The position numbers and the translations under genes were made by a program. The notes beneath the pieces were generated by a model, which worked only from the letters and a program-made list of their open reading frames with translations, had not been told where the DNA came from and did no database searches. A DNA stretch of 64,000 nucleotides, from the NCBI RefSeq assembly GCF_019711565.1, contig NZ_JAIGNN010000001.1:1-64000 (forward strand), in the 5' to 3' direction. The stretch comes from Qipengyuania proteolytica (GTDB lineage Bacteria; Pseudomonadota; Alphaproteobacteria; Sphingomonadales; Sphingomonadaceae). Shown piece after piece: positions 8,364 through 25,864 of this stretch (its first letter is position 1; each line of letters opens with the position of its first letter).

Positions 8364-8467
8364 TCCCTCGGGCAGACCCCAATCTCAGAATGAGAGTGGA
8401 GGGAGCCCTTTGGGCTTGTGGGCCTCGTGATCCTCACCTGCGCCTTCATTCCATCAGGAGAACACCC
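8364..8467 (+). promoter_or_regulatory. Structured leader of the ParB-like gene
   Basis: A 104-base gap with small hairpins: AGCCC-TTT-GGGCT (about 8404-8416) and GTGA-TCC-TCAC (8427-8437). GAGG (8399-8402) can pair with CCTC (8423-8426). The ATCAGGAG ribosome-binding segment, shared with the ardC, DUF2493 and 19293 leaders, ends just before the start codon. Confidence 0.4.
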
Positions 8468-10459
8468 ATGATCCAGTCGATTCCCTTGAAGAAGCTCGTC
8501 CCGAGCCCGCGCAACGTTCGCAAGTCGAGCGACGTACTGGCCGACCTTCAACTGCGGGCAGACATCGCCGCGCGCGGCCTGCTGCAGAACCTCGTCGTGC
8601 GCAAAGGAAAGCGCGGCAAGTTCGAGGTCGAGGCCGGCGGTCGCCGGCTCGCTGCACTGCAGGCGCTGGCCGAAGATGGCGCCTTGCCCGAGAACCACGA
8701 GGCCACGTGCCTCGTCATCGAAGGCGAAGAAAGCGAAGTGCGCGAAGCCAGCCTTGCCGAGAATTTCCAGCGTCTCGCAATGAACCCGGCCGACGAGGCG
8801 CAGGCCTTTGCTTCCATCATCGAGGCGGGGGCTACCCCCGAAGACGTGGCGCGCCGCTTCGGCCTCACCGTCCGCTTCGTCGAAGGACGCCTGCGTTTGG
8901 CAAGTCTCGCACCCTGCGTCTTCCAAGCACTCGCCGAAGCCTCGATCACGCTCGACATGGCCAAGGCCTACGGCGCGATTTCCGACGTGGAGCGCCAGGC
9001 GCATGTCTATGCCGAGCTGCAGGACGCCTGGTACCAGGTCACGCCCGACACGATCCGCCGCATGGTGCTCGATGCCACGGTGCGTGGTTCCGATCCGCGT
9101 GCCGTGCTTGTCGGACGCGATGCCTACCTCGTCGCAGGCGGCCGGATCGAGCGCGAACTGTTCGACGATGATGCCAGCGAGAGCTGGATCGATGTCGCGC
9201 TGCTCGAGGACCTCGCACACAAGGCCATGGCAGAAGCCGCAGAAAAGGTCGCGATTGAATTCGGCCTGGCATGGGTGCGCCCAACACTTGGCAACTACGT
9301 CAGCCATGACCTTGTCGAAGGCCTGGGTCGCTTGCCTTGCGAGCCTGCACCGATGACCGAAATGGAAGCGCAGGAGCTGGGGGAACTCGAAGCCGATTAC
9401 GACCGTGTCGCCGCCATTCTTGAAGACGAGGACAGCGACGAAGATGAAGTGGCCAAGGCCGAAGAGGAACTCGTGGCGATCAATCGTGCCATGCGAGACC
9501 TCACCGATCGTCCGCCGGTGCTGGCCGATGGACTCAAAGCCGAAGCCGGTGCCTTCCTAGTCCTCTCGCGCAATGGCGAGCCTTCGCTTGTTCCGCAGTT
9601 CTACACCGAGACCGAAGTCATCGCTGACGAAGGTGTGGTCGAAGCAATCGAGGACAGCGGAACCGCGAAGCCCAAGGGCAGCTCTCTCTCCCAGCGCTTG
9701 CTCGACGAGCTCGCAATGCAACGCCGCGACATCCTGGCAATCCATCTCGCCAATGACCCGGCACTGGCGCTCGACTTCATGGTCTTCACGCTCGCCGATG
9801 CCGATGGGCATGACTGGCGCGCCAAGAAAGCGTCGACTCTCGCCGGCTCGGTCGCGTCCGGCCCGGTCACCGGGTTCGAGGCCAAGGATGCCCCGGCAAG
9901 TGCTGCTATGGCCGAGTTCGCAGGATCGCTCGATGAAAGCTGGCGTGCTGGCGAAGACGACGTCGAGCGGTTTGCGAGGTTCCGGGCTTTGTCTGACGAG
10001 GCGCGCTCGGCTTGGCTTGGCCACGTGGTCTCTCGCACGCTTGTCGCGAGCCTTGCCTGCGAAGGCGAGCGCTCGGTGCCGCTGCACGAGGCGCTCGGCT
10101 CACTGCTCGACATCGAGACCGCGCATTGGTGGCGTCCCACGGCGGCCAACTACTTCGATCGTGTGGCCAAAGCCCGCACGCTCGAGGCGCTCGATGCTGC
10201 GGGTGGTCCGGAACTGGTCAGTCGCTATGCGGCCTCGAAGAAGGCCGAACTGGCGAGCGCTGCCGAGCGCATCTTCTCGGGCAACTTCATTGGCGAGGCC
10301 GATATCAAGGAGCGGGCACAGGCCTGGGTGCCTTCGATCATGCGGTTCACTGATGCTGACGTTCCAGCCGATGTCGAGGAAGCTGCGTCGGTTGATGACC
10401 TCGCCGACGAAACGGTCAGCGGCCAGGTGGCCGATGAGATTGCCGAGCAGGCTGCCTGA
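8468..10459 (+). CDS. parB: ParB/RepB/Spo0J-family protein, long form
   Basis: A 663-aa protein with an N-terminal ParB CTPase domain: VPSPRNVRKSS, EVEAGGRRLAALQAL (~55-70) and ENFQRLAMNPADEAQAF (~98-114), then a helix-turn-helix segment (TPEDVARRFGL, ~124). The long C-terminal half (~300-663) is acidic and has no domain I recognise. ParB-like genes of this length sit in the leading region of many conjugative elements, without a ParA partner, as here. The start at 8468 follows ATCAGGAG; the upstream part of the frame lies in the leader. A strong terminator follows the gene. Confidence 0.85.
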   Translation: MIQSIPLKKLVPSPRNVRKSSDVLADLQLRADIAARGLLQNLVVRKGKRGKFEVEAGGRRLAALQALAEDGALPENHEATCLVIEGEESEVREASLAENFQRLAMNPADEAQAFASIIEAGATPEDVARRFGLTVRFVEGRLRLASLAPCVFQALAEASITLDMAKAYGAISDVERQAHVYAELQDAWYQVTPDTIRRMVLDATVRGSDPRAVLVGRDAYLVAGGRIERELFDDDASESWIDVALLEDLAHKAMAEAAEKVAIEFGLAWVRPTLGNYVSHDLVEGLGRLPCEPAPMTEMEAQELGELEADYDRVAAILEDEDSDEDEVAKAEEELVAINRAMRDLTDRPPVLADGLKAEAGAFLVLSRNGEPSLVPQFYTETEVIADEGVVEAIEDSGTAKPKGSSLSQRLLDELAMQRRDILAIHLANDPALALDFMVFTLADADGHDWRAKKASTLAGSVASGPVTGFEAKDAPASAAMAEFAGSLDESWRAGEDDVERFARFRALSDEARSAWLGHVVSRTLVASLACEGERSVPLHEALGSLLDIETAHWWRPTAANYFDRVAKARTLEALDAAGGPELVSRYAASKKAELASAAERIFSGNFIGEADIKERAQAWVPSIMRFTDADVPADVEEAASVDDLADETVSGQVADEIAEQAA

Positions 10460-10489
10460 CCCCTCCTGACAGGTCCAGGTCACTCGGCG

Positions 10490-10525
10490 GGCGGTCCGTC
10501 CCACTTGGGACGGGCCGCCTTTTTT
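10490..10525 (+). terminator. Rho-independent terminator after the ParB-like gene
   Basis: GGCGGTCCGTCC and GGACGGGCCGCC pair with one mismatch around a short loop and are followed by TTTTTT. This ends the leading-region transcript just before the inserted Hachiman-like module. Confidence 0.9.
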
Positions 10526-10799
10526 ATATCAAATTTGGGGCCAGCAACGGACGGTCCGCTCTTTGCTCGTCAGTCAGCCGAACCGGACCGCCTTAAAGCT
10601 CATTGTTGCCATCTGCTTTTCGATAGCGTCACGGAGCCGCCGCCGTATGCGGACGGAGATAACAGCAGGGACTTTGAGGCCTTGAAAGAATTTGGCGTGT
10701 CATTCATAGATTTCGATCATGTCGATTTCGGGCGTCGAGCCTCCAACCATGTCGCAAAGCTCGTTGGGGACCTGTCTGAGAAGATAGGGGCGGGCATTC
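10526..10799 (+). other. Gap upstream of the Hachiman-like genes, with a possible gene remnant
   Basis: No confident gene. One forward frame is open from the terminator (10505) to 10879 with no internal ATG. Its stretch around 10670-10795 (DFEALKEFGVSFIDFDHV, then ASNHVAKLVGDLSEKIG) looks protein-like, then the frame loses that character where the HamA-like frame begins at 10800. It could be the N-terminal part of a HamA-like protein separated by a frameshift, a small upstream gene using GTG, or chance. The promoter of the defence operon should also lie here. Confidence 0.35.
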
Positions 10800-11597
10800 A
10801 TGGCTGTTGCGGCAGGCGAAACCACTTATACTCACGGCAAAGTCCCTTGCACAGCTCAGGGGCTAATCTGGTCCGCTGACGAACTCGATAGTGCACTGGC
10901 AGATCGCGTCTCGGACATTGTGTTCGATGAGGACGGAAAAGCCGACATTGAAGCGATCTTAAGCGGGCTCGCCGAGACGGAATTCGCTCAGGATGGCCTG
11001 CGGGACATACTCGCAGAGCCCGACGAAATTGAAGATTGGCGTGTCGGCGAAGCCATTGCCGAGGCGTATCTGACCGATCATCGCGATTGCGAATTCCCTT
11101 GGCCGGATTCTCGTGATGAGCGCAAGAGTGGCTCCAGTCTTCCTGGAGCTGACTTGGTAGGTTTTCGGACCGATGATGATGGTGATGTTCTTGCTTTCGG
11201 CGAAGTCAAGACATCTACCGAAGACAAGCATCCGCCTGGCGCGATGTACGGTCGCACTGGTTTGAAGCAGCAGCTCGAAGACCTTCGTGATCGTGACGAC
11301 ATTCGCGATGACCTTCTCAGGTATCTTTGCCACCGTGCCAACGCCGCGCCTTGGCGTCCGCGCTTTGAGGCCGCGAGCCGTCGATACTTACAGAACAAGT
11401 CGGATGTGCAGCTCTATGGCGTCCTCATCCGAGATGTGGATGCCCACGTTGATGATGTGCGGGTCCGCGTTGTGAAGCTAGGAAAGGATTGTCCAGAGGG
11501 GACGCGCATCGAGTTGATCGCGCTTTATCTGCCGAAAGGGCGTATCGAAGGTCTAGGGACGGCCTTGATTGCGCAGCGGAAGGTAGGCGAGGCATGA
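10800..11597 (+). CDS. hamA: HamA-like nuclease (DUF1837-type) of a Hachiman-like system
   Basis: A 265-aa protein. The middle carries a PD-(D/E)XK nuclease pattern: GADLVGF with Asp118, then GEVKTS with Glu135 and Lys137. In Hachiman, HamA is the DNA-degrading effector held in check by the HamB helicase until it meets damaged or phage DNA. The stop codon overlaps the ATG of the helicase (ATGA at 11594-11597), so the two are translationally coupled, as expected for the pair. The related AbpAB system has the same nuclease-helicase logic and is the main alternative. The start is uncertain: a protein-like stretch in another frame precedes 10800. Confidence 0.72.
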   Translation: MAVAAGETTYTHGKVPCTAQGLIWSADELDSALADRVSDIVFDEDGKADIEAILSGLAETEFAQDGLRDILAEPDEIEDWRVGEAIAEAYLTDHRDCEFPWPDSRDERKSGSSLPGADLVGFRTDDDGDVLAFGEVKTSTEDKHPPGAMYGRTGLKQQLEDLRDRDDIRDDLLRYLCHRANAAPWRPRFEAASRRYLQNKSDVQLYGVLIRDVDAHVDDVRVRVVKLGKDCPEGTRIELIALYLPKGRIEGLGTALIAQRKVGEA

Positions 11598-14500
11598 GTC
11601 TATCTGCCGAAGCCTTTGCATCCTTGGGAAACCACTGGGCCGTTAGTGCCATTGGCGAAGAAGCACTGGAGCGTGCTGATCGGCTCGTTAACGAGCGGCT
11701 TGCCTATCGCGCAGTGGGGACACAAATCACCTTCTCCTTCGCGGTTGAGAAGGATGACGAACCGTTCCTTGAGCGGATCGCTCTCGCATACGAAATGGCT
11801 GCTATTGAAGGGCTGGACGAACTTAGCCGTCCGGCGGGCGAAAACCGTGTTTTGCGCGACCAAGCCATATCAGCCTCTTACAAGGCGTTCGAAATCCGCC
11901 GTTTGATGCCCGTGCCAAAGGAGGCGAATGACCGCCTTTTTTTCGTGCTTCAACTTTCTGCGCTCGCCTACTGCGGTGACCGCTGGTCCGATTTACGTCG
12001 CTGGTACAAGGACAACGACGCGGCACTGTCCGCTCCGAGCGTGGCCGACGTTCAATGGGATCGCCGTTTGCTCTATCGATTGTTCCATTGCTGGGTCCGC
12101 TTGTTCCGCAAGAATGGCTGGGATGATCTTGACCGAATTCGTGAGATTATTGCTGGGCTCCGCGACGATCAGAAACGGTTCGAAGCGGGACGTTTGAAGA
12201 ACGGTTCCGAGGCAGAAGACCGTTCGATCGCACTGCGTCTCGCTGCGCTTTACCATTGGGCCAAGGGCACCGAAATTGTCGCCCATTATATGCTCCAAGG
12301 GGAACCCGTGAATCCGTTTGCGGGGCTCGACAAACATTTTGATGCGGCCATCAAGGCTGCCGTCGCTTCGAGTGACGCGCAGCATGAGATCGTGCTGCGC
12401 TGGTTACACGCGACCGCCCGTATCATGGTGACAAATTCGCTTTGGTGGGCGACCCGCACGGTCAACTCCAAGACCTCGAAGTTCGTTCATTCGCTGACCC
12501 ATCGAGGGCATCAGGCAATGTTCGAGCTCTTGCCACCTCAACGCGCTGCCTTGCTCGAGAAGGGGCTACTCGATCAGGCGAAGACTGCAATCGTGGTTGA
12601 TATGCCGACATCGGGCGGCAAGACGCTGCTTGCCCAGTTCAGAATGTTGCAAGCACTCAACCAGTTCAATGCGGACGATGGTTGGGTCGCCTATGTGGCC
12701 CCCACGCGCGCGCTTTCTGCCCAGATCACGCGGCGCTTGCGTAAGGACTTCGAGCCTATCGGTTTGCGGGTCGAACAGCTTACCGCAGCGATTGAAGTCG
12801 ATGCCTTTGAAGAGGAGCTTCTCTCCGATACCCAGCAACCGTTCCACGTTCTCGTTGCCACTCCCGAGAAGCTCTCCCTCCTGATAAGAAACAAGAAGGT
12901 CTTGCGACCGCTTGCGCTTGTCGTGATGGACGAAGCGCACAACATCGAGTCAGAGGGACGCGGTCTTCGCATCGAGCTCTTGCTGGCGACTGTCAAACGA
13001 GATTGTCCGACAGCCAATTTCCTGATGCTCATGCCCTTCGTTGACGGGGCGGACACTATAGCCCGATGGCTCGCACAAGATATCAACGCAGGTCAGGCAA
13101 TCAGTTTCGGGACGACAGCCTGGAAGCCCAATGAGAGGATCATCGGCCTTTATCGTGCCGTCGAAGACAATAGCGAAAGGGCTGGCTGGCACCTCGAATT
13201 CGAGACCTTGACGGCCACGCCCAAAGCGATGCCGTTGCATGGTGAGCATCGTGTCGGCAGTGTGAAGCCGATCAATGTTCCCAAGAGCAAGGTTCTAAGC
13301 AAGGGCGAGCAAAAGGGCTTGGCACTCCAAACCGCTGCGATGGGCACCATCATGTCAGCGCGGGGCACCAGTGTCACCGTCGCCAATAACATCCCGACGG
13401 TGTGGACGATGGCCCGAGAGGCGGCGGAGAGTCTGGCGGCTTTCCAAGCGGTTCCCGATGATATCCGCCTCGTTCAAGACTTCCTGCGCAGTGAGATCAG
13501 TCCCGACTTCCAGCTCGTAAGCTTGCTGGAGCGCGGTGTTGGTGTTCACCATGCAGGACTGTCTGATGATGTCCGCGCCTTAATGGAATGGCTCGCCGAA
13601 AACGGCAGCCTGAGAATGCTCTGCGCCACCACAACGATCGCCCAGGGCATCAATTTTCCTGTCTCTTCTGTTTTCCTACAGACCCATAAGTACCCGTACG
13701 GGCATGAGATGGCCCCGAGGGAATTCTGGAACCTTGCAGGGCGCGCGGGACGGATCGGCCATGATAGCGTCGGCGTCGTCGGTCTTGCCGAGGGCTCGGA
13801 ACCTGACGCCCTCAAATCTTTTGTGAGCCGCAATACCGGAGCTCTTGTCTCACGTTTGGTGACGCTGATTGATGACTTGGCGGCTCAAGGGCAGCTCAAT
13901 GAACTCTCCGATGTGTTGTGGCAGGATCAATGGGAAGATTTTCGCTGCTACGTCGCCCATCTTTGGGCTGAAAAGAAGAATCTCGACGACGTTCTGGCCG
14001 ACACCGAACAGCTATTGCGGCAGACTTATGGCTACACCACGATGCGCAATGACCCGGCGCAACGTGAAAAGGCAGATGCCCTTCTTGATGCCACCAAGAC
14101 ATATGCGAGAAAGCTTGCCGACAATCCCGGATATGCAGAACTTGCGGACTCGACAGGCTTCTCACCCGAAGGTGTCGCCCGTGCGATGTCAGGAATGGCG
14201 GGCCTAGAAGATCGGCTCACTCCGTCAGACTGGACGCCTGATAGTCTATTCGGTGACGGCGGAAAGATTGCAGATCTGTTCGGCGTTATGCTCAAGGTTC
14301 CGCAACTGAGGGAGCCACTCGACGAAATCGGCGGCGACGGCTTCGACCAGACGAGATTGTCAGACATCACGCGCGACTGGGTGAATGGGAAAGGCATCGA
14401 CGCCATTGCCAAGGAATACTTTACGCGTGCCCGTGATGATGAATCGGGAACCGCTGCAATCACGGACGCTTGCAAAGCGATCTACCGCGCGATCGTGAAT

Positions 14501-14860
14501 AACGGGACTTGGGGTGTTTCTGCCCTCAGCCGTGTTTCGGGCATGGATTTCGACGCACTTTCCGATGCCGAGCGCCGCCGTATCAATGCTCTCCCTGCCA
14601 TGATCTATCACGGTGTTCGCACCGAAGAGGCCGTCTTGATGCGCATGAATGCCGCACCGAGAAGCGCGGCAGAAGCGCTTGGCGACCTCTACAAAAATGT
14701 GACTGCCGGGGACGAGAGCAGTTTCTCAGTTGGCAAGGCAAGAGGCTTTCTCAAACAGCTCGGATCAAAGGACTGGGCTAGAGCGAGACCCGAAAGCGCA
14801 CCGCTAAGCGGCGATGGCTACAAGCGCGTATGGGAGGTGTTGTCAGGGGAGGCTGAGTAA
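11594..14860 (+). CDS. hamB: HamB-like Ski2-type SF2 helicase of a Hachiman-like system
   Basis: A 1088-aa helicase (ATG at 11594 overlapping the nuclease stop). The first ~320 residues are helical and unrecognised. VVDMPTSGGKTLLAQ (Walker A, ~335-349), YVAPTRALSAQ and VVMDEAHNIES (DEAH, ~446) form the first lobe. HHAGLSDDVR, TTTIAQGINFP and WNLAGRAGRIG form the second, which is the Ski2/Hel308 style reported for HamB. The C-terminal ~330 residues are not assigned. Together with the upstream nuclease it fits Hachiman, where the helicase senses DNA and licenses the nuclease. By eye it is less GC-rich than its neighbours, which fits recent acquisition. Confidence 0.78.
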   Translation: MSLSAEAFASLGNHWAVSAIGEEALERADRLVNERLAYRAVGTQITFSFAVEKDDEPFLERIALAYEMAAIEGLDELSRPAGENRVLRDQAISASYKAFEIRRLMPVPKEANDRLFFVLQLSALAYCGDRWSDLRRWYKDNDAALSAPSVADVQWDRRLLYRLFHCWVRLFRKNGWDDLDRIREIIAGLRDDQKRFEAGRLKNGSEAEDRSIALRLAALYHWAKGTEIVAHYMLQGEPVNPFAGLDKHFDAAIKAAVASSDAQHEIVLRWLHATARIMVTNSLWWATRTVNSKTSKFVHSLTHRGHQAMFELLPPQRAALLEKGLLDQAKTAIVVDMPTSGGKTLLAQFRMLQALNQFNADDGWVAYVAPTRALSAQITRRLRKDFEPIGLRVEQLTAAIEVDAFEEELLSDTQQPFHVLVATPEKLSLLIRNKKVLRPLALVVMDEAHNIESEGRGLRIELLLATVKRDCPTANFLMLMPFVDGADTIARWLAQDINAGQAISFGTTAWKPNERIIGLYRAVEDNSERAGWHLEFETLTATPKAMPLHGEHRVGSVKPINVPKSKVLSKGEQKGLALQTAAMGTIMSARGTSVTVANNIPTVWTMAREAAESLAAFQAVPDDIRLVQDFLRSEISPDFQLVSLLERGVGVHHAGLSDDVRALMEWLAENGSLRMLCATTTIAQGINFPVSSVFLQTHKYPYGHEMAPREFWNLAGRAGRIGHDSVGVVGLAEGSEPDALKSFVSRNTGALVSRLVTLIDDLAAQGQLNELSDVLWQDQWEDFRCYVAHLWAEKKNLDDVLADTEQLLRQTYGYTTMRNDPAQREKADALLDATKTYARKLADNPGYAELADSTGFSPEGVARAMSGMAGLEDRLTPSDWTPDSLFGDGGKIADLFGVMLKVPQLREPLDEIGGDGFDQTRLSDITRDWVNGKGIDAIAKEYFTRARDDESGTAAITDACKAIYRAIVNNGTWGVSALSRVSGMDFDALSDAERRRINALPAMIYHGVRTEEAVLMRMNAAPRSAAEALGDLYKNVTAGDESSFSVGKARGFLKQLGSKDWARARPESAPLSGDGYKRVWEVLSGEAE

Positions 14861-15020
14861 GACGGTCAGCATCGCGGATGAGATTAGCGTACCTATTCGA
14901 CCGAATTATTCATCTATCTCTTCAACGTCTGCTTCAAGCAATTGAGACCATCCCTGCGTATGTCTTGGATTAGGGCGCATAACGGCCATCATTGAAGGAG
15001 AGAGGAGGGAGCTTTGCTTT
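14861..15020. other. Intergenic stretch between HamB and the ardC leader
   Basis: About 160 AT-richer bases with no gene and no clear terminator. This is probably the right boundary of the inserted defence pair. Confidence 0.4.
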
Positions 15021-15060
15021 TCCTGAGCCGGGGCATTTCCGTTCGTCCCGGCGATCAGGA
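15021..15060 (+). promoter_or_regulatory. Hairpin that covers the ardC ribosome-binding site
   Basis: TCCTGAGCCGGG (15021-15032) pairs with CCCGGC (15047-15052) and TCAGGA (15055-15060), a 12-bp stem with a two-base GA bulge. The right arm contains most of the Shine-Dalgarno sequence (AGGAG, 15057-15061) of the gene starting at 15069. It should lower translation unless opened. Alternatively, in single-stranded form it could act as a promoter hairpin. Confidence 0.6.
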
Positions 15061-15068
15061 GAACTCCC

Positions 15069-15998
15069 ATGACCAAGTCCCGCCGCACTGCTTCGATATC
15101 GCCGGCTCAGCGTATCACCGCCGCCATCATCGGAAAGCTCGAGCAAGGCACCAAGCCCTGGATCAAGCCGTGGCGCGGTGTGCCGGTTTCGCGGCCGTTG
15201 CGCTCCTGCGGAACGCCCTATCGCGGCATGAACACTTTCTGGTTGTGGATGGTGGCCGATGGCTGCGGCTACGCTTCGCCTTACTGGATGACCTATCGCC
15301 AGTGTCAGGCGCTCGGCGGACAGGTCCGCAAGGGTGAGAAATCGACCATCGCGATTTTCTACAAGAGCTACACCAAGGAGGTCGAGAACGCCGAAGGCGA
15401 AGCTGACATCAAAAGCCGGCGCGTGCTTAAGGCCTACGCCGTGTTCAACGCCGACCAGTGCGATGGCCTCCCTGCATTCTACCATCCCAAGCCGCTGGTT
15501 GCCGCGCTTGAGCCCGAAGGACGTGAAGAGCGGCTCGATGCTTTCTTCGCCCACATCGGCGCAGAGCTGCGCCACCATGGCGCGCAGGCCTACTATGAGC
15601 CGCTGCGCGACCGGGTCACCATGCCGCCAGCCGAACTCTTCGACGCCTACGACCACTACTACGCGACGCTCGCACACGAGCTGTCGCACTGGACGGGGCA
15701 TTCCTCGCGGCTCGACCGCGATCTCAAGAACCGCTTCGGTAGCGACGCCTATGCTGCCGAAGAATTGATCGCCGAGCTTTCCTCGGCCATTCTCGGGGCC
15801 GAACTGGGCCTTCCCGTTACCCACCTTGACCATCACGCGAGCTACATCGCGTCCTGGCTCAAGATCCTCAAATCGGACGAGCGCGCGATCCTCACAGCTG
15901 CGGCCAAGGCCGAGGAAGCGGCCGGCCTGCTGCTTGGACTGGGCGGATACCAATCAAGCGAAGGCGAGACCGATGTCGATCTCGCTGATGCAGCCTGA
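15069..15998 (+). CDS. ardC: ArdC-like antirestriction protein (ssDNA-binding plus zincin)
   Basis: A 309-aa protein with the two ArdC parts. The N-terminal ssDNA-binding region (~10-130) includes KLEQGTKPWIKPWRG, PYRGMNTFWLWMVA and GGQVRKGEKSTIAIF. The C-terminal metallopeptidase-like domain has HELSHWTGH (HExxH, starting ~202) and downstream EELIAELSSAILGAELG supplying the third zinc ligand. ArdC shields incoming single-stranded DNA from host restriction during conjugation. It sits in the presumed leading region with ssb, as on many plasmids, and needs its RBS freed from the 15021-15060 hairpin. Confidence 0.92.
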   Translation: MTKSRRTASISPAQRITAAIIGKLEQGTKPWIKPWRGVPVSRPLRSCGTPYRGMNTFWLWMVADGCGYASPYWMTYRQCQALGGQVRKGEKSTIAIFYKSYTKEVENAEGEADIKSRRVLKAYAVFNADQCDGLPAFYHPKPLVAALEPEGREERLDAFFAHIGAELRHHGAQAYYEPLRDRVTMPPAELFDAYDHYYATLAHELSHWTGHSSRLDRDLKNRFGSDAYAAEELIAELSSAILGAELGLPVTHLDHHASYIASWLKILKSDERAILTAAAKAEEAAGLLLGLGGYQSSEGETDVDLADAA

Positions 15999-16009
15999 GG
16001 AGCAGTGAG

Positions 16010-16450
16010 ATGGGACGTTCCGTCAGCTATCCAACTGGCTCCGTGGTTGCCTTTCGCCTGCTTGATGACGGCGAAGACGAAGATGTCGACTGGGCATACG
16101 AGTGCCTAGTCGACGAGATCATCGATACCGCGAAAGCGGCCTTTCCTTCCTTTGAACGCTTCGAAGGATGGCGCGGCCGCGAAGATCGTATCCTCTTACG
16201 CAACGCCTTCGCCGATTGCGGTATTTCGACCTATTGCGGCCTTGCCGCGATCTGGCTCGTCGAGCGCGACGATGCCCGGTACTGGGAGGCCGATTTCTAC
16301 ACCCCACGAACTGCAAGAGCACGGCACTGGCTTGGACAGGTGTCAGGAAAGTTCATCGACCTGTATGGTGAGCTGCGCCTGGTCGGGCGGTTCTCGAATG
16401 GTGAAGCGATCTTCGAGCGCTCCCGATCCACCTGCGACACCGGGTCCTGA
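16010..16450 (+). CDS. Hypothetical leading-region protein
   Basis: A 146-aa soluble protein starting 12 bases after the ardC stop, with GAGGAG upstream, so probably co-transcribed. Readable segments are EDVDWAYECLVDEIIDTA, FERFEGWRGREDRILLRNA and ISTYCGLAAIWLVERD. No motif I can tie to a function. Its place next to ardC suggests an establishment or antirestriction accessory role; that is inference. Confidence 0.7.
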   Translation: MGRSVSYPTGSVVAFRLLDDGEDEDVDWAYECLVDEIIDTAKAAFPSFERFEGWRGREDRILLRNAFADCGISTYCGLAAIWLVERDDARYWEADFYTPRTARARHWLGQVSGKFIDLYGELRLVGRFSNGEAIFERSRSTCDTGS

Positions 16451-16669
16451 TCCTGCCTCGTCCCTGACCGCCGGGAGAGGCCCTTGGGCCGGTCGGGGCA
16501 CGCCGCAACCTGCGGCCCGTCGGCCCGTGTTGCCCGCGCCAGCCTAGGGCCGCAGGTTTCCCGCTACGCGGTGCGTCACGCCCCTTGTCCCGGCCCTGAT
16601 CGGGCTCCGGCGGACAAGGCCGAGGCAATGGTGCCTCCTCTCCTTGTCCGCACGATCAGGAGACACCCC
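16451..16669 (+). promoter_or_regulatory. Highly structured leader with alternative stems (candidate regulatory RNA)
   Basis: No reading frame, but unusually dense perfect inverted repeats. AACCTGCGGCCC (16507-16518) pairs with GGGCCGCAGGTT (16547-16558), 12 bp. CCTTGTCC (16583-16590) can pair with GGACAAGG (16612-16619). That same segment, as CGGACAAGG (16611-16619), can instead pair with CCTTGTCCG (16642-16650), enclosing GAGGCA-ATGG-TGCCTC. The last two stems exclude each other, as in attenuators and switches. ATCAGGAG and the start codon at 16670 follow immediately. Confidence 0.6.
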
Positions 16670-17605
16670 ATGTACGACAGCTTCATCGATCAATTGAGCG
16701 GCCTTGACCTTTCAGGCCTCAGCATCAGGCCAGCTCCCTTCAACGAAACCGATTTTCCCTGCGAGGACGCGATCGAGCAGACGCTTGGCGCCGTATGGTC
16801 CGACCTCTTCGCGATGTTTTCCGACACGGCACTGGAAGCTGATGCCGAGGACATTGCCTGGGGCGTGGTCAATCTCTTTCACCGTGCCGCCAGCCGGAAG
16901 TCCGCTCACCTCGACCGGGCCAGCGACGAGATCCGGGTCCTCCTCGCATCAGCCGATGGCTCCGAAGTGCACTCGAGCAATCTGGAAGAGCAGGTCGAAC
17001 GTGCACAGGCCGCCGAAGCCAGCATGTTGGCCTTCGAGCAGATGCGCGAGGCTGCGGCAGCGCTCTACCGCGACGAGACCGGTTCCTCGTGGAAGCCCGT
17101 TTCCGGCTCGCGCACGAGCCATTCGCGAAACCTCACATCGGCCGTGATCGATGCCCGCGATTTCCTTCGCGCACGCGCTGAGAACCGCCGTCACGCCCTT
17201 ATCCCGGAGGGAACTCCAATCGTCTTCGCCGGTGGTCGACAAAGCTTTGAGAGCGCCCAGGATGCGCGTGTCTACGCCGACAATATCTGGGCGACGCTCG
17301 ACAAGGTTCGCGATGTGGTTCCCGATCTCTTCCTGGTCCATGGCGGCGACGGCAAGGGAGCCGATCGCCTGGCAGCGAGTTGGGCTGAACGCCGCGAAGT
17401 GCAGCAACTGACCTACTCGCTTGATCGTCGGCTTGGTGCTCGCGCCGGGTTCAAGCGCAACGAGCAAATGCTTTCGCTCAATCCGCGCTATGTCGTCGCC
17501 TTTCCGGGCAATGGCGTGACCGAACGGCTCGTGATCGATGCCAAGGCACGCCGGATCACCGTGGTCGATCGCCGCGGCCTCTTGGGCACCTCTCCCGGGT
17601 CCTGA
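16670..17605 (+). CDS. DUF2493 (SLOG-superfamily) protein
   Basis: A 311-aa protein. The N-terminal ~180 residues are helical and of unknown role. The C-terminal domain (~182-305) is DUF2493/YspA-like: IVFAGGRQSFES, LFLVHGGDGKGADRLAASWA, FKRNEQML and VVAFPGNGVTERLVIDA, the Rossmann-like fold of the SLOG superfamily that binds nucleotide-like ligands. The ATG at 16670 follows ATCAGGAG; the frame upstream of it is the structured leader. DUF2493 genes recur on sphingomonad plasmids and ICEs. The ligand and purpose are unknown; nucleotide sensing during establishment is a guess. Confidence 0.82.
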   Translation: MYDSFIDQLSGLDLSGLSIRPAPFNETDFPCEDAIEQTLGAVWSDLFAMFSDTALEADAEDIAWGVVNLFHRAASRKSAHLDRASDEIRVLLASADGSEVHSSNLEEQVERAQAAEASMLAFEQMREAAAALYRDETGSSWKPVSGSRTSHSRNLTSAVIDARDFLRARAENRRHALIPEGTPIVFAGGRQSFESAQDARVYADNIWATLDKVRDVVPDLFLVHGGDGKGADRLAASWAERREVQQLTYSLDRRLGARAGFKRNEQMLSLNPRYVVAFPGNGVTERLVIDAKARRITVVDRRGLLGTSPGS

Positions 17606-17675
17606 GGGGGCCTTTACAAATTGCAACTGCATTGCCCGGATGTGCATTCGGCGCAGACCCGACTATGGACCGGTC

Positions 17676-17945
17676 ATGCAACTTGACGATCTGCTGCAGC
17701 GGTACTTTGCCACCACCGACCTCTCCGGGGTTGCCCCCGACACGTTGTCAGCTGGCATCGAGCATTGCCGGGTCGATCTCGGCCTCGAGGAGGACCGGGG
17801 CAAGCGCTTTGCACTGTGGTCGTTCCTGCACATGTTCGGGTCCGCCCCCGATCTCGATGTGGCGTTCGAAAACGAGGAAGACCGGGAAGCAGCCCGCAAC
17901 TTCATGGATCTACTGGCGGCATCGCAAGGCGATGGAGCAGGCTGA
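17676..17945 (+). CDS. Small hypothetical protein
   Basis: An 89-aa acidic, helical protein starting MQLDDLLQRYFATTDLSG, with LGLEEDRGKRFALWSFLHM in the middle. The ATG at 17676 is chosen because upstream codons read poorly; the RBS is weak. It follows the DUF2493 gene by 70 bases in the same direction. No function recognised. Confidence 0.55.
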   Translation: MQLDDLLQRYFATTDLSGVAPDTLSAGIEHCRVDLGLEEDRGKRFALWSFLHMFGSAPDLDVAFENEEDREAARNFMDLLAASQGDGAG

Positions 17946-18213
17946 TTGCAGTAGGGTCTTGGCACCTTCAGACCCGCACCCGATACTCATCCGGCTTTCT
18001 TCGCGAACAGTCCTGAACCAGGTCAGCTGAGGACAGCAACCCGTTCCTTTCCGGCCGTGTGGTCGCGCTTCGCGCGCCTGCCCGCACCACTCGTCATGAA
18101 CAGGTTTCCCTTGGAGCTTCGCTCCTGCGGTGCAGTCCTCCCATGCCCTGCTTCTTCTGGATGTTCGCAAGCCGGAGATGGTCTCCGGTTTGAGGAACCG
18201 AAGGACTTACACC
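17946..18213 (+). promoter_or_regulatory. Structured leader of ssb
   Basis: A 268-base gap without a credible gene but with hairpins: a GTGGT/ACCAC stem enclosing GCGC-TTC-GCGC near 18060-18095, GGAG-CTTCG-CTCC near 18113-18125, CCGGAGA-TGG-TCTCCGG (18172-18188) and CGGTT-TGAGG-AACCG just before the GAAGGAC ribosome-binding site. It probably holds the ssb promoter and a folded 5' leader. Confidence 0.5.
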
Positions 18214-18612
18214 ATGACCAATATCGCAATCCTCACCGGCCGCATCGCTCGCGATCCGGATACCCGCGAGACCAAGGGCGGCACCAATATCACCGGGATC
18301 ACCGTCGTCACCGATCGCCCCGCACGCGACAAGGACGGCAAGACCTACAAGGACGAGAACGGCTACACCGCCAAGGAAAGCGAGTTCCACCGGGTGACCT
18401 GCTTCAACGGCCTCGCCAAGACCGTCGGGCAGTATTGCTCCAAGGGCCAGCTGGTATCGGTCCAGGGCCGCATCCACTACACCCAGTGGGAGGACAAGGA
18501 CGGGGTCACGCGCTACGGCACCGAAATCCTCGCCGACAAGGTCGACTTCCTCTCTCGCGGTAGTGGTTCCGGCGACGACAACGACAACACCGACGCTCCC
18601 GATATCGACTGA
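18214..18612 (+). CDS. ssb: Single-stranded DNA-binding protein
   Basis: A 132-aa SSB with the OB fold filling nearly the whole protein: MTNIAILTGRIARDPDTRET, ESEFHRVTCFNGLAKTVGQY, KGQLVSVQGRIHYTQWED and YGTEILADKVDFLSRG. The tail is acidic (GDDNDNTDAPDID) but lacks the usual DDDIPF-type tip used to recruit host repair proteins, which is common for element-encoded SSBs. It likely coats transferred single strands during establishment. Upstream in-frame codons exist, but the ATG at 18214 has GAAGGA at the right distance and gives the standard N-terminus. Confidence 0.95.
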   Translation: MTNIAILTGRIARDPDTRETKGGTNITGITVVTDRPARDKDGKTYKDENGYTAKESEFHRVTCFNGLAKTVGQYCSKGQLVSVQGRIHYTQWEDKDGVTRYGTEILADKVDFLSRGSGSGDDNDNTDAPDID

Positions 18613-18637
18613 CATCGATGCCGGTCGTCCCCCTTTC

Positions 18638-18674
18638 GAAGAGGCTCTGCCGCAAGCGGCAGGGCCTCTTCTTC
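18638..18674. terminator. Bidirectional terminator between ssb and the convergent gene
   Basis: GAAGAGGCTCTGCCGC and GCGGCAGGGCCTCTTC pair almost perfectly around AA, flanked by T-rich sequence on the right and A/T on the left. It serves ssb (plus) and the gene at 18680-18946 (minus). Confidence 0.85.
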
Positions 18675-18679
18675 TGTGG

Positions 18680-18946
18680 TTACTGGGTTCCCGGCGCAGC
18701 ATTCGAAGCACGGGTTGCAGCGCGCCCGATCAGCTTCTCGATCGCGGCATCCTCGCTGAGTTTCCCGAGTTCTTCGGCAACCTTCCTCAGGCCCTTCTTC
18801 GAGAAGCTCTCGAGGCCGCTTCCCAGGATGATTTCTCCGAGTTCTCTGGCCGCTTGTACTTCGAGCTCGCGCTGTTTGGCGTCGAGCGCCTCGCGGTCTG
18901 CTTCGAGCTTTTGCAGGGCTGCAATCGCGCTCCTGTTTCGGGGCAT
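18680..18946 (-). CDS. Small coiled-coil protein (DUF6437-like)
   Basis: An 88-aa protein. The ATG at 18946 is preceded by AAAGGA; a longer frame to 19006 reads poorly. It starts MPRNRSAIAALQKLEADREA and continues as one long charged helix (AKQRELEVQAARELGEI), then GSGLESFSKKGLRKVAEELG. It resembles the DUF6437 proteins of sphingomonad elements; that match is from memory. It is the only minus-strand gene between the primase gene and the repressor. Role unknown; a helper of DNA processing near oriT is possible. Confidence 0.65.
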   Translation of the reverse strand: MPRNRSAIAALQKLEADREALDAKQRELEVQAARELGEIILGSGLESFSKKGLRKVAEELGKLSEDAAIEKLIGRAATRASNAAPGTQ

Positions 18947-19254
18947 GTGTCTTGTCCTTTCGTCCCCCTCGGATCTGCTCCCCGATTGCTTCCATGCCCG
19001 GGACATCGGGGTGTAGGAAAGGCAATTCGCACCCAGCAGGCGTTCGATATTGGGGCGGAGGTGGTGGGTCCTGGCTCACGGTTCTCCCAGCATGATGGCC
19101 TTGCGCCTCCCGCCTCAAGGACGGCGGGGCCCCACCATTTTGCCCGCCACCGGATTGCATCCGGCAGCGAACAAAATCGTTACCCCCACCGCCGCTATCG
19201 CGGTCGCCCAGCCGGGCGATCCCTGACCCGGGATGCACAAGACCATCGCGCGCA
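18947..19254. other. Divergent intergenic region
   Basis: About 308 bases between divergent small genes, with no credible frame. It contains GGTGGTGGGTCC facing GGGGCCCCACC (about 19062-19138), which can form a long-range stem, and short GC-rich repeats. Promoters for both neighbours are expected here. Confidence 0.4.
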
Positions 19255-19286
19255 CCTCCTGTCGTCTCACGACAGAAATCAGGAGG
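19255..19286 (+). promoter_or_regulatory. Hairpin that covers the ribosome-binding site of the 19293 gene
   Basis: CCTCCTG (19255-19261) is complementary to CAGGAGG (19280-19286), which is the full Shine-Dalgarno sequence. Nested and partly competing is CTGTCGT-CTC-ACGACAG (19259-19275). Either fold keeps the RBS next to or inside a stem. Confidence 0.6.
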
Positions 19287-19292
19287 ATTATC

Positions 19293-19514
19293 ATGGCCTA
19301 TTCAATGCATTGCGCCCTTCCGTCCCGGAGTTATTTCGAGGCTCTGGAAACAGCCGAGAAGAGAGCGCTGCACAGCTTCTTCGATCAGCACGTTATCGAG
19401 GATGACGAACTCGGGTATTTTGCCCTCGACGAGGGTGACTACAACATCTTGCCAGCGCATCTCGCAGCGCGGGTGGTCCACACGGTCCATGGCGGCATGC
19501 TCGACGAATTCTGA
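19293..19514 (+). CDS. Small hypothetical protein next to oriT region
   Basis: A 73-aa protein starting MAYSMHCALPSRSYFEALET, with ALHSFFDQHVIEDDELGYF and a short C-terminus. AGGAGG sits seven bases before the ATG. No motif recognised. It is the last leading-region gene before the long non-coding stretch and has its own terminator. Confidence 0.6.
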   Translation: MAYSMHCALPSRSYFEALETAEKRALHSFFDQHVIEDDELGYFALDEGDYNILPAHLAARVVHTVHGGMLDEF

Positions 19515-19525
19515 GACTACCGACA

Positions 19526-19559
19526 GGGCGGGAACCGGGAACGGTTCCTGCCCTTTTTT
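19526..19559 (+). terminator. Rho-independent terminator
   Basis: GGGCGGGAACC and GGTTCCTGCCC pair around GGGAAC and are followed by TTTTTT. It closes the 19293 gene and separates the leading region from the oriT-like stretch. Confidence 0.9.
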
Positions 19560-20158
19560 CTTGTTCACCGGCTAGTCTAACCAAGGACAAGAACCCTGTT
19601 CGGTCGGTTGCTCTGACGGCCGCCCACCGCAGTGCGGCGGCGCCCGATAAATGGAGCGGGGCTGTGGACGCACTCTGTCCCGCGCATCTTGCGATGCGCT
19701 CCTAAGGGTGCGACGTGATTTGTTCTTGGGCCCCGCGCGCACTTGCGAACCGGCACCGGGTCGGGCGGCGGGAAGCTTGGGCACGCGACATGTTCCGCTT
19801 GTCTTGCTTCCCACGCGCCCTTGGCCGCTGCCTCTTTCGCAGGTGCTGTCATTGGCTGGAGGCATCGAACTGCTTTCTATCTGCATGCGATCAGGCGCCA
19901 GGCCCGGTTGCTCGCGCTCCAACGTGGAGATCGGAAAAGGTCGTCCTTGATCAATCCCGCTTATTGCCTGGACCACGTCGCGCACCTGGGAACAAAGGAG
20001 CACACCCTACCCCGCGATTTCGGGATTTATCTCTCTGTTATTGCTGAAGAATGTGGTTTTGGGCGGAATCAACCCGTCTGCGAGTAGAGCGGCTTTGCGC
20101 TGATCCGCAAACAACTCACATCCATCTATCACTATGAAATATTGTCCGAATCTTTCGA

Positions 20159-20187
20159 TTGACTGCGAGTTGTTCACGATTTATTCT
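20159..20187 (+). promoter_or_regulatory. Likely sigma-70-type promoter of the relaxosome operon
   Basis: TTGACT (-35, 20159-20164), exactly 17 bases, then TATTCT (-10, 20182-20187). The predicted start, near 20194, coincides with the first base of the leader hairpins. Confidence 0.5.
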
Positions 20188-20193
20188 CATCGG

Positions 20194-20241
20194 CACCTTC
20201 CGCAAGGTGAGCCAGGTTCCGTCGGCCCGACAAGGAACCTG
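20194..20241 (+). promoter_or_regulatory. Tandem leader hairpins occluding the relaxosome RBS
   Basis: CACCTT-CCGC-AAGGTG (20194-20209) is followed by CAGGTTCC-GTCGG-C-CCGAC-AA-GGAACCTG (20213-20241), a 13-bp stem with a two-base bulge. The right arm contains the AAGGA ribosome-binding site of the gene at 20246. In double-stranded DNA the same repeat could be the operator of the ribbon-helix-helix protein it precedes. Confidence 0.6.
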
Positions 20242-20245
20242 TTTC

Positions 20246-20578
20246 ATGACCCGACAAGATCGGCTTCAGACATTCGTATCTCTCTCCGTTGGTAACTGGG
20301 TTCGCCAGTGTGCCGCGGACCATGGTGTCAGTGTCAGCGTCTTTATCCGTGACCTCATAGTCGCAGCCTGGCAGCGCAATAACGAGGCGAAGGACCGGCC
20401 CGCAGGGCTCGATCCCGCGCGCCAGGCGATCTTCATTTCGGTTGCGCTCGATGCGCTTCTGGCCAGCCATTCTGACGCGAGTTTGCGCGACCGTACTCAC
20501 GAGGCGTACCGGCGACGCCTCGAGCGTCTTGGCCTCCCCGTCAACGCGAGCATGGGAGGCCATTCCCATGAAGCATAA
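20246..20578 (+). CDS. Ribbon-helix-helix relaxosome accessory/regulator protein
   Basis: A 110-aa protein. The N-terminal part (RLQTFVSLSVGNWVRQCAA, then HGVSVSVFIRDLIVAAWQ) has the beta-strand/helix/helix pattern of ribbon-helix-helix DNA-binding proteins such as MobC, TraY or TrwA. Such proteins bind oriT, help the relaxase nick, and repress their own promoter. Its end overlaps the traD start by 11 bases. The start at 20246 is set by AAGGA upstream; an earlier in-frame ATG at 20159 would run through the hairpins. Confidence 0.72.
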   Translation: MTRQDRLQTFVSLSVGNWVRQCAADHGVSVSVFIRDLIVAAWQRNNEAKDRPAGLDPARQAIFISVALDALLASHSDASLRDRTHEAYRRRLERLGLPVNASMGGHSHEA

Positions 20579-22939: not shown

Positions 22940-25864
22940 ATGCTTTCCGTCGCCAATGTGCGCTCCCCTTCGGCTGCCGCGAGCTATTTCGCGGCAGACA
23001 ACTACTACACCGGCGCCGATGCCGATCGTTCCGGAACCTGGGTGGGGAAGGGAGCGGAACGACTTCGCCTTGAGGGGCGGGTCAGCGCTGAGCAGTTCGA
23101 TGCCTTGCTGCGGGGAGAACTTCCCGGTGGTATCCAGGTCGGCAACCCGGGCCAGGCCCACAGGCCGGGAACCGACCTCACATTCTCACTCCCGAAAAGC
23201 TGGTCGCTGCTCGCGCTGGTGGGCGGCGACCAGCGGGTTATCGATGCCTATCACGAGGCCGTCATCGAGACCTTGCGCTGGGCAGAAAAGAACGCGGCGC
23301 AGACCCGGATGGGCAGTCAGGCTGGCTACGGGAAGGTCGCGACAGATAACCTGACGATTGGTCTTTTCCAGCACGACACCAACCGCAACCAGGAGCCGAA
23401 CCTGCATTTCCACGCAGTTGTAGCGAATGTCACGCAAGGCAGCGACGGGAAGTGGCGCGCGCTTCGCAATGACAAGCTTTGGTCGTTGAATACCTTGCTC
23501 AACTCGATGACCATGGCGCGCTTTCGTCTGGCGGTCGAGAAAATGGGCTACGAAGCAGGGCCGGTTGGAAAGCATGGCAATTTCGAAGCAGCGGGCATTG
23601 CCCGCGAGCAGGTGATGGCGTTCTCAACGCGGCGCGAAGAAGTCCTCGACGCGGTACGCAAGCTGGGTGAGAACACTCCGAAAACTCGCGACATCGCCGT
23701 GCTCGATACAAGGAAGAGTAAGGCGCCCGTCAGGGACCGGGAAGGCCTTCTCGATGCATGGCGGCAGAAAGCCCAGGAAGTTGGAATTGAGTTTGCCGGA
23801 TTTATCGATGCGTCGCAGATGCGAGCTGCAACGAAGGACATTTCCAGCTCGAAAGAAGGGAGCCTTCTTCAGCGTGGAATTGCGAAGCTGAGAGAGTTCG
23901 CGCTCCGGATCAAGGGCGATCCGGCTGATCCACTGATCCCTGCCCATGTTCTCAACCAGGATGCACCGACCATCGCGGCCGCACAGGCCGTGGCCTCTGC
24001 GGTGCGTCATCTCTCGCAACGCGAGGCAGCCTTTCCCCGTGAGGGATTGCTGAAGGCGGCGCTCGATTTTGGGCTGCCGACAACGGTGGACCACGTCGAA
24101 ACCCGTGTGAACGCATTGGTCAGAAGCGGCGCACTCGAGCCCGGCAAAGGCGAACATAAAGGCTGGCTGACGAGCCGCGAGGCGCTAGACCTTGAAAGCA
24201 CCATTCTCGCTAGTGTCGACCAGGGACGAGGTGCAGTGTCGCCCATCCTGGATCGATCGGACGGCGCAGAACGGGTTCAGGCAGTTGCCGCGATCAACCA
24301 CGGAATTTCGCTCAACGAAGGGCAGGAGGATGCGGCGAGCCTTGTCCTTTCGTCGCGTGACAGGATCGTAGCGATCCAGGGCATAGCCGGGGCGGGCAAA
24401 AGCAGCGTGATGAAGCCGGTCGCCCAGCTGCTCCGCGAGGAAGGCAAGCAGGTGCTGGGGCTCGCCATGCAGAACACGCTCGTCCAGATGCTCGAGCGCG
24501 ACACCGGCATCCGTTCGATGACCATCGCCCGCTTTCTAGCGCAATGGGGCAGGCTTCTGCACGAGCCGGGAAATGCCACGTTGCTGAGTGAGGCTCGGAG
24601 CGGGCTCGGAGACCATGTCCTGGTGCTCGACGAGGCCTCGATGGTGTCGAACGAGGACAAGGCCAAGCTGGTACGGCTGGCGAACCTTGCCGAAGTCCAG
24701 CGCCTGGTTCTCGTCGGCGACAAGCGACAGCTGGGCGCCGTCGATGCCGGTAAGCCCTTCGACCTCGTCCAACAGGCCGGGATCGAGCGCGCCAACATGG
24801 ATGTGAATTTGCGCGGCCGCGATCCCGTCCTGCGGCGAGCCCAGGCCGCCGCGCAGGAGGGACGCATCGACGATGCGCTCCAGGCTCTTGCTCCCTCAAC
24901 CATCGAGGCTCGCGGGGACAGTGCGATTGTTGCTGCCGAAAAGTGGCTCTCGCTCAGCCTAGCGGATCGGGATCGGACGTCGATCTACGCGTCGAGTCGA
25001 GCCTTACGGTCTGCGGTCAACGAGGCTGTCCAGCGCGGACTCAAGGCCAATGGCGAGCTCGGCCCACGATCGGGCCGCCTGACCGTTCATTCGCGAGTGA
25101 ATGTGACACACGAGGAGCTGCGCTATCTTCGCACATATCAGCCGGGCATGGTCCTCAACTTTCGCTCGCGCGACAGCACGCAGAAGCTCTCCAAGGGCGA
25201 CTACACCGTCAAGACCATCGACCATGCGCGCAAGCAGCTCGTGCTTGAGGACAGGAAAGGGCGGCTTCGCAAGTTCAATCCCGCGCGCTTGCGGCCGGGC
25301 GCAGACGATAGCCGGCTGTCGCTCTTCGAACGCAAATCGCTTTCCCTCATCGAGGGTGACAAGGTCCGTTGGACCGACAATGACCACAAGCGCGGGCTGT
25401 TCAACGCCGACCAGGCGAGGATCGTGGCCATCGACGCAAAGGGCGTCTTGGTAGAGACATCAGCGGGCAAGGAGCTTCGCCTGAGCCGCGGCGACCCCAT
25501 GCTCAAACGCATGGACCTCGCCTATGCCCTCAATGCGCATATGGCGCAGGGACTGACCTCTGATCGCGGTATCGCGGTGATGGACAGCCGCGAACGCAAT
25601 CTCGCCAATCGGCAGACCTTCCTGGTCACGGTCACCCGGCTTCGGGACGGCCTTACGCTGATTGCAGATAATGCCGAGAAACTCGGCCGGGCCATCAAGT
25701 CCAACAGCGGCGAGAAAGCATCGGCCCTCGAAGTAACGCAAAGGCTCAAGGCGGCAGCTGCCAAGGGCCTTTCGCAAGACAAGGATGTTGGCAACGCTTC
25801 GCCTGCAAGTGACAAACCCGAACTCACCAAGGAAAGGGTAAAGCCTTTTGAAATCGGCATTTGA
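22940..25864 (+). CDS. traI: MobF-family relaxase/helicase (TraI/TrwC type)
   Basis: A 974-aa protein. The N-terminal TrwC relaxase domain starts MLSVANVRSPSAAASYFA, with catalytic tyrosine candidates Y16, Y22 and Y23 (SYFAADNYYTG), and has the three-histidine metal site in HDTNRNQEPNLHFHAVV (~144-160). The C-terminal part is a RecD-like SF1 helicase: GIAGAGKSSVMKPVA (~482), VLDEASMVSN (~563) and GDKRQLGAVDAG. It nicks oriT, stays on the 5' end and unwinds the transferred strand. It is shorter than F TraI (1756 aa), close to TrwC (966 aa). The presumed oriT is upstream of traD. Confidence 0.94.
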   Translation: MLSVANVRSPSAAASYFAADNYYTGADADRSGTWVGKGAERLRLEGRVSAEQFDALLRGELPGGIQVGNPGQAHRPGTDLTFSLPKSWSLLALVGGDQRVIDAYHEAVIETLRWAEKNAAQTRMGSQAGYGKVATDNLTIGLFQHDTNRNQEPNLHFHAVVANVTQGSDGKWRALRNDKLWSLNTLLNSMTMARFRLAVEKMGYEAGPVGKHGNFEAAGIAREQVMAFSTRREEVLDAVRKLGENTPKTRDIAVLDTRKSKAPVRDREGLLDAWRQKAQEVGIEFAGFIDASQMRAATKDISSSKEGSLLQRGIAKLREFALRIKGDPADPLIPAHVLNQDAPTIAAAQAVASAVRHLSQREAAFPREGLLKAALDFGLPTTVDHVETRVNALVRSGALEPGKGEHKGWLTSREALDLESTILASVDQGRGAVSPILDRSDGAERVQAVAAINHGISLNEGQEDAASLVLSSRDRIVAIQGIAGAGKSSVMKPVAQLLREEGKQVLGLAMQNTLVQMLERDTGIRSMTIARFLAQWGRLLHEPGNATLLSEARSGLGDHVLVLDEASMVSNEDKAKLVRLANLAEVQRLVLVGDKRQLGAVDAGKPFDLVQQAGIERANMDVNLRGRDPVLRRAQAAAQEGRIDDALQALAPSTIEARGDSAIVAAEKWLSLSLADRDRTSIYASSRALRSAVNEAVQRGLKANGELGPRSGRLTVHSRVNVTHEELRYLRTYQPGMVLNFRSRDSTQKLSKGDYTVKTIDHARKQLVLEDRKGRLRKFNPARLRPGADDSRLSLFERKSLSLIEGDKVRWTDNDHKRGLFNADQARIVAIDAKGVLVETSAGKELRLSRGDPMLKRMDLAYALNAHMAQGLTSDRGIAVMDSRERNLANRQTFLVTVTRLRDGLTLIADNAEKLGRAIKSNSGEKASALEVTQRLKAAAAKGLSQDKDVGNASPASDKPELTKERVKPFEIGI

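Follow-up and report, generated by a model that had tools for sequence, protein, structure and literature searches.

The stretch analysed here (the window) comprises 64,000 nucleotides (nt) of Qipengyuania proteolytica (contig NZ_JAIGNN010000001.1, positions 1 to 64,000) and holds the left part of a conjugative element. The plus-strand order includes an integrase, a Zn-ribbon/Toprim protein, a strawberry-notch-type helicase, a ParB-like protein, ardC, a DUF2493/YAcAr gene, ssb, two small genes named after their start positions (19293 and 20246), a TrwB/TraD-type coupling protein and the TrwC/MobF relaxase. The present analysis deals with two structured elements, types A and B, that are predicted to fold on the transferred DNA strand (T-strand), and with RNA hairpins over the Shine-Dalgarno (SD) sequences of several of these genes. 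The genes and elements concerned are the following:

3133-4041, plus strand: Zn-ribbon/Toprim protein, DnaG-like
15069..15998, plus strand: ardC (Pfam ArdcN and MPTase-PolyVal)
16504..16576, minus strand: predicted type B element (model R3, E 2.3e-6), 93 nt before DUF2493, outside the model-building set
16670..17605, plus strand: DUF2493/YAcAr gene (Pfam PF10686)
18035..18135, minus strand: predicted type B element (R3), 78 nt before the ssb start; single-sequence fold weak (z -1.71 minus, -1.40 plus)
18214..18612, plus strand: ssb (Pfam PF00436)
19112..19231, minus strand: predicted type A element (model R2), 61 nt before the 19293 start; DNA fold z -5.69 minus, -3.31 plus
19293..19514, plus strand: 19293 gene, 73 amino acids, leading region, no Pfam match
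20000..20029, minus strand: predicted core of the origin of transfer (oriT), with inverted-repeat hairpin CCCG..CGGG, the 9-nt GTAGGGTGT and a predicted nic between 20002 and 20001
20246..20578, plus strand: 20246 gene, 110 amino acids, before traD, no Pfam match
22940..25864, plus strand: TrwC/MobF relaxase (Pfam PF08751)

The predicted oriT lies between 19293 and 20246, where GCACACC was the longest stretch of unvaried alignment columns (7) when the window was compared with 13 relatives. Read on the minus strand, the site consists of a hairpin, 9 nt and GGTGT|GC, a predicted nic of MobF type; the motif occurred once in the 64-kb window and in 61 of the 84 loci with enough sequence, and a stem of at least 4 pairs directly preceded the 9 nt in 49 of 50 distinct sequences, a count made without a shuffled control. 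An inverted repeat 9 nt before the predicted nic and a purine after it agree with the MOBF type of oriT. The gene order, too, is like that of R388, which runs oriT-trwA-trwB-trwC. The same arrangement of hairpin, 9 nt, nic and purine is given for R388 (hairpin, GTATTGTCT/ATAG) and for plasmid F (inverted repeat, GTGGGGTGT, then GG) in passages of PMC4814116, PMC4176350 and PMC5422253; the 9-mer itself differs, being GTAGGGTGT in the window and often GTACGGTGT in relatives, not GTATTGTCT or GTGGGGTGT. The minus strand is the predicted T-strand, leaving leftwards. Because the predicted nic is on the minus strand, the incoming strand would be the template of the plus-strand genes ardC, DUF2493, ssb and 19293; the leading region is predicted to comprise 19293, ssb, DUF2493, ardC and parB, and the trailing region 20246 and the tra genes. 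An earlier, sequence-only reading of the region had supposed leftward transfer from 19.6-20.2 kb with the incoming strand as template, as in F, and both suppositions agree with this predicted nic; its roll of leading-region genes holds for ardC, DUF2493, ssb and 19293 and fails for 20246, which is no leading-region gene since it lies beyond the predicted nic.

The relatives came from stretches fetched around copies of ardC (40) and of 19293 (60), and strand preference was judged on non-redundant sequences against composition-preserving shuffles, with RNA and DNA parameters. Type A (alignment A7, 27 of 33 sequences) forms a closed, multi-branched fold of the minus strand, with TCARGGA/TCCTTGA as its outer stem, two small hairpins and, around GATTTT/AAAAT, a long hairpin. 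Two-sided changes were present at 17 of its 31 pairs, amounting to 97 alignment cells versus 31.8 in shuffles; 95.2% of the cells were paired as compared with 41-59% in slid controls, and none of 500 shuffles attained any of five measures. The minus strand was more stable in all 27 aligned sequences with RNA and DNA parameters alike, the consensus fold favoured it with both, and so did the composition-corrected region upstream of 19293 (37 of 41 sequences with DNA parameters and all 41 with RNA parameters). When stretches of 160 nt were scanned, the interval of type A gave the strongest minus-strand fold among 135 intervals (z -10.0; plus strand -4.6). A conserved leftward sigma-70-like promoter adjoins type A on its left (19089-19118, minus strand; same place in relatives). 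It is of the type TTGACG or TTGAGG, 17-18 nt, CATnCT (TTGAGG-18-CATGCT in the window), is enriched with z 8.9 over 50 sequences, and faces DUF6437 in the window; no annotated leftward gene is present there in pNL1 and pCAR3.

Type B (alignment A8, 32 of 43 sequences) has a simpler fold, with two-sided changes at 4 of 13 pairs (16 cells versus 5.1). Again the minus strand was more stable in every aligned sequence (32 of 32, RNA and DNA parameters); the consensus fold favoured the T-strand with RNA parameters only. The minus strand was preferred in the region upstream of ssb (23 of 31 sequences with DNA, 25 of 31 with RNA parameters) and upstream of DUF2493 (36 and 34 of 41, respectively). By eye, the variable loop of type B upstream of ssb contains an extra hairpin of some tens of nt in the relatives L168, L198 and L203.

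Model searches returned one type A and two type B elements in the window, all on the minus strand, and nothing further in its 64 kb at E 0.05; in the whole genome at E 0.001, the one R2 and two R3 matches all lay inside this element. Among 122 matches in the searched loci, 114 were oriented opposite to the leading genes; of the remainder, 7 matched the complement of listed elements more weakly and 1 stood alone (E 0.034). Stretches having matches contained 1-4 copies, and 106 of the 113 matches used for distances ended 51-100 nt short of a start codon, that of 19293, ssb or DUF2493, the other 7 being without a mapped gene:

R2 before 19293: 51-61 nt before the start (n=41)
R3 before ssb: 68-78 nt before the start (n=29)
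R3 before DUF2493: 77-100 nt before the start (n=20)
R2 before DUF2493: 59-75 nt before the start (n=15)
R3 before 19293: 66 nt before the start (n=1)

Type A was found in 7 of 385 sampled genomes of the class and type B in 24 of 61 genomes, the window's own genome included in each case. Plasmid pNL1 carries type A before DUF2493 and before its 19293 homologue; pCAR3 carries type A before the same two genes and type B before ssb. Homologues of 19293 were present in 94 of 397 genomes of the family, and the protein in 74 of 72,556 plasmid records (49 typed conjugative), whose hosts were mostly sphingomonads; the best plasmid match to positions 18000-19300 was an Aurantiacibacter atlanticus plasmid (81.3% over 71%). 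The counterpart of 20246 by synteny in pNL1 is annotated as ribbon-helix-helix.

Structures of a different kind were predicted on the plus strand, in the leaders themselves:

8387..8470, plus strand: leader of the parB-like gene, weak match to R1 (covariance model of the ardC leader), E 0.0024
14993..15071, plus strand: ardC leader, model R1
15018..15063, plus strand: predicted SD-sequestering RNA hairpin of ardC; RNA z -3.28, none of 200 shuffles equally stable
16595..16660, plus strand: predicted long-range pairing over the DUF2493 SD, CCTGATCG (16595-16602) with CGATCAGG (16653-16660)
18152..18205, plus strand: predicted ssb leader hairpin reaching the SD; z -2.43, somewhat unusual
19255..19286, plus strand: predicted SD-sequestering RNA hairpin of 19293, with alternative inner stem CTGTCGT/ACGACAG
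20159..20187, plus strand: putative sigma-70-like promoter TTGACT-17-TATTCT before 20246; match poor in several distant relatives
20213..20241, plus strand: predicted SD-sequestering RNA hairpin of 20246, CAGGTTCC (20213-20220) with GGAACCTG (20234-20241)

Sequestration was scored as an unpaired probability of the SD below 0.25 in 75-nt stretches and compared with shuffled leaders. It was in excess for ardC (20 of 25 relatives versus a shuffled mean of 7.5), ssb (16 of 24 versus 6.8), 19293 (42 of 46 versus 23.2) and 20246 (19 of 23 versus 10.1), slightly so for parB (5 of 10 versus 3.3, shuffles up to 6) and traI (3 of 11 versus 1.9), and not in excess for traD (17 of 40 versus 17.2), the 16010 gene (2 of 37 versus 8.8) and DUF2493 (16 of 44 versus 18.8), where the 75-nt stretch touches only the edge of the pairing partner. 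In the 76-nt fold of DUF2493, the SD is outside the strong hairpin and four of its bases (GGAG) pair with CTCC at 16605-16608; the partner conserved across relatives is 16595-16602, with 4 cells of two-sided changes versus 1.1 in shuffles. The ardC stem was 93% paired across relatives (slid controls 29-52%), and covariation of this leader was not in excess over shuffles. In the 19293 leader, whose stem pairs CCTCCTG (19255-19261) with CAGGAGG (19280-19286) and is unremarkable as a single sequence (z -0.86), the inner stem kept its pairing by two-sided changes in 12 cells versus 4.0 shuffled, and the stem over the SD had none in the 11 sequences aligned; by eye, the sequestering arms in the wider set are often wholly replaced and still pair, e.g. 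CGCTCCTGTC/GACAGGAGCG in L179, a few leaders fitting poorly (such as L194, L218 and L221). The 20246 leader is likewise unremarkable alone (RNA z -1.37); pairing of its stem was preserved by changes on both sides in 7 cells versus 2.4 shuffled, and the promoter-like site precedes the hairpin. Also by eye, several 19293 leaders (19255-19286; L219) could form either of two stems that exclude each other, over the SD or next to it, a possible two-state switch, and an open reading frame upstream of ardC, in its leader (15014 TTG), seems to change frame among relatives.

The stems that the sequence-only reading had placed over the SD of ardC, 19293 and 20246 are located as described. The strong folding it had seen in further leaders was recovered for ssb and for the DUF2493 stretch (z -3.23, clearly unusual as a single sequence, like ardC) and not for the parB-like gene (z -0.29; no consensus structure in 14 sequences). 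The shared leader sequence ATCAGGAG is common to parB, ardC, DUF2493 and 19293 in the window; ssb has GAAGGA and 20246 has AAGGAA. Covariation in relatives, by which that reading was to be judged, appeared for 20246, DUF2493 and the 19293 inner stem and did not exceed shuffles for ardC. A leader type with GAGAGGGGAGGGAGC... ATCAGGAG is common to the parB-like gene (8380-8470) and ardC (14993-15071), and R1 recovers both in many copies of this kind of integrative and conjugative element (ICE). Rfam offered nothing at these sites at E up to 5 (window 1-28000), no family such as STAXI matched at gathering score in the window or in the 7 of 40 first-set loci checked, and the radC RNA motif (RF01754) was above the Rfam cut-off in 0 of 147 genomes.

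Since a G.U pair on one strand is an A.C mismatch on the other, selection on RNA and selection on the complementary ssDNA (single-stranded DNA) leave different traces. The 20246 leader favoured the plus strand in 19 of 26 sequences with RNA and DNA parameters and was alone in being significant with the latter; the leaders of DUF2493 (30 of 40) and 19293 (28 of 41) favoured it with RNA parameters and were neutral with DNA parameters, and the ardC leader showed no significant preference (plus in 17 of 27). In the SD helices, G.U exceeded A.C (19 versus 6 positions), a count partly biased by the picking of helices. Because they favour the plus strand or neither, the SD hairpins look like mRNA structures; a brake on the translation of the mRNA is their best reading.

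Taken together, the nic layout, the T-strand folding with its covariation and strand preference, the near-fixed spacing and the predicted SD sequestration, all obtained by sequence analysis, argue for two layers of control on leading-region genes, namely ssDNA promoter or primer elements and SD-sequestering mRNA hairpins; we assign this reading a probability of roughly 0.6. The minus strand would enter as ssDNA, types A and B would fold on it and may then act as single-strand promoters or primer sites: we infer that host RNA polymerase starts at the element and, using the incoming strand as its template, transcribes the gene that begins 50-100 nt further on, which suggests that 19293, ssb and DUF2493 are switched on before the DNA becomes double-stranded. 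The mRNAs of ardC, DUF2493, ssb, 19293 and 20246 would fold their own SD into a hairpin, a brake that probably guards against read-through transcripts while the element is integrated; the entry of polymerase, its timing and what the brake is for belong to this inferred part. Strand-specific folding, several copies and near-fixed spacing to template-strand genes fit single-strand promoters of the Frpo/ssi kind. That the elements form an alphaproteobacterial class of such promoters (ICEs, pNL1, pCAR3), lacking good sigma-70 boxes and any sequence relation to Frpo, which together with the SD hairpins would confine leading-region proteins to the recipient and to synthesis from the incoming strand, is put forward tentatively, at somewhat less than even odds.

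Several observations weigh against the two-layer reading. The ssb copy of type B in the window folds weakly alone, and with DNA parameters the type B consensus fold does not favour the T-strand (-0.17 versus -0.40). Wobble counts at pairs with a Watson-Crick majority were not significant (6 versus 2 positions in type A, 3 versus 3 in type B), and the raw counts (57 versus 2, 49 versus 3) are biased because of how the helices were chosen. The relatives compared are related sequences, treated statistically without a tree; in the window, R2 and R3 have no match before ardC or parB; and pNL1 and pCAR3 have no match to the nic motif, for which reason their orientation rests on synteny. A simple scan with the E. 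coli sigma-70 consensus found no excess of rightward boxes between element end and start codon (z 0.2, -0.5, 1.7) and none in type B (4.65 versus 5.11 shuffled); type A exceeded shuffles slightly (mean best 6.41/12 versus 5.77; maximum 8, in 2 of 41), and a mild excess was present left of type A (z 3.3), so that an ordinary double-strand promoter is possible there. Finally, plasmid F forms equally strong folds on both strands in windows 17160-17240, and folding strength alone is therefore unspecific.

Types A and B might instead be single-strand origins or primase sites for second-strand synthesis and not promoters, as proposed by analogy with sso1 of ICEBs1. The same strand specificity would be expected, weak or absent sigma-70 boxes fit, and the element encodes a DnaG-like Zn-ribbon/Toprim protein (3133-4041); sso1, too, is a strand-specific folded element of an ICE, folded and orientation-specific according to passages of PMC4595007. 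However, priming requires neither the near-fixed distance to start codons (106 of 113 mapped) nor 1-4 copies per stretch, and in being tied to gene starts types A and B differ from sso1; we consider this possible though rather unlikely, and the two roles are not exclusive because Frpo is described as doing both. Minus-strand antisense RNAs comparable to FinP of F, an antisense RNA on a leader, would leave the same strand signature, but leftward promoters right of the elements were without clear excess (z 1.6, 1.1, -1.8), and a transcript from the enriched leftward promoter (z 8.9) would miss type A since that promoter sits left of it, which makes this origin improbable.

The sequence-only reading had named the SD hairpins themselves as possible single-strand promoters. 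They do sit on template-strand genes, and two fold well as minus-strand DNA (z -3.04 for 20246, -3.19 for the DUF2493 stretch; -1.1 to -1.7 for the others); against this stand their plus-strand or neutral preference and the position of 20246 beyond the nic with a promoter-like site of its own. The structures selected on the T-strand proved to be others, which lie 50-100 nt ahead of the starts of 19293, ssb and DUF2493 and which that reading had not named, and the promoter role of the hairpins was given up as very improbable. We place hardly any credence in a general GC-rich background as the source of the folded leaders: sequestration is common in the background too, at 17 of 40 for traD and 4 of 11 among other genes of the window, but four genes exceeded shuffles, two-sided changes were found in 20246, DUF2493 and the 19293 inner stem, and the T-strand elements exist besides.

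Elsewhere in the window, the cargo between parB and ardC (10460-15000) varies among copies, and this gap looks like an insertion hot spot because the two genes are within about 170 nt of each other in L039, L047, L053 and L064. Open reading frames at 45247-53504 resemble, by eye, a type I restriction-modification set.

In comparison with known systems, the proposed brake recalls fold-back inhibition in IS10-type transposase leaders, in which an RNA hairpin forms over the ribosome site: a hairpin at this position would silence read-through transcripts here as well. The difference is that the promoter-like site of 20246 precedes its hairpin and that nothing here points to native transcripts that lack the 5' arm. 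As regards types A and B, the F stretch upstream of ssb, site of a reported Frpo, leaned to what we take to be the T-strand of F (z -9.5 versus -6.8). They are not filed as Frpo members because sigma-70 boxes are absent (type B, gap between element and gene) or slight (type A); R2 and R3 had no match in F 48000-68000 at E 0.1, a model search that sets them apart from Frpo without direct alignment to the published Frpo sequences, and the host class is another one. Among the matches listed from open-licence PMC, no title or abstract beginning concerned single-strand promoters of sphingomonad elements or these motifs. ArdC of R388 is required in the recipient and not in the donor according to a passage of PMC7213743, which we count in favour of the two-layer reading. 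What types A and B, as known from their sequences, share with the Frpo/ssi elements of F and ColIb-P9, in the description given in parts of PMC11541004 and PMC8744291, is folding on the transferred strand, a position upstream of leading genes including ssb, several copies and the transferred strand as template. Single-strand promoters have so far been gathered mainly by similarity to five known Frpo/ssi sequences plus four-island candidates (as stated in part of PMC11541004); strand-specific covariation would be a similarity-free way to find them, and it points to particular copies in well-studied sphingomonad plasmids that can be tested. Should the two-layer reading hold, the Frpo family would understate how old early expression from incoming ssDNA is or how often it has arisen; here such expression would be coupled to a translational gate.

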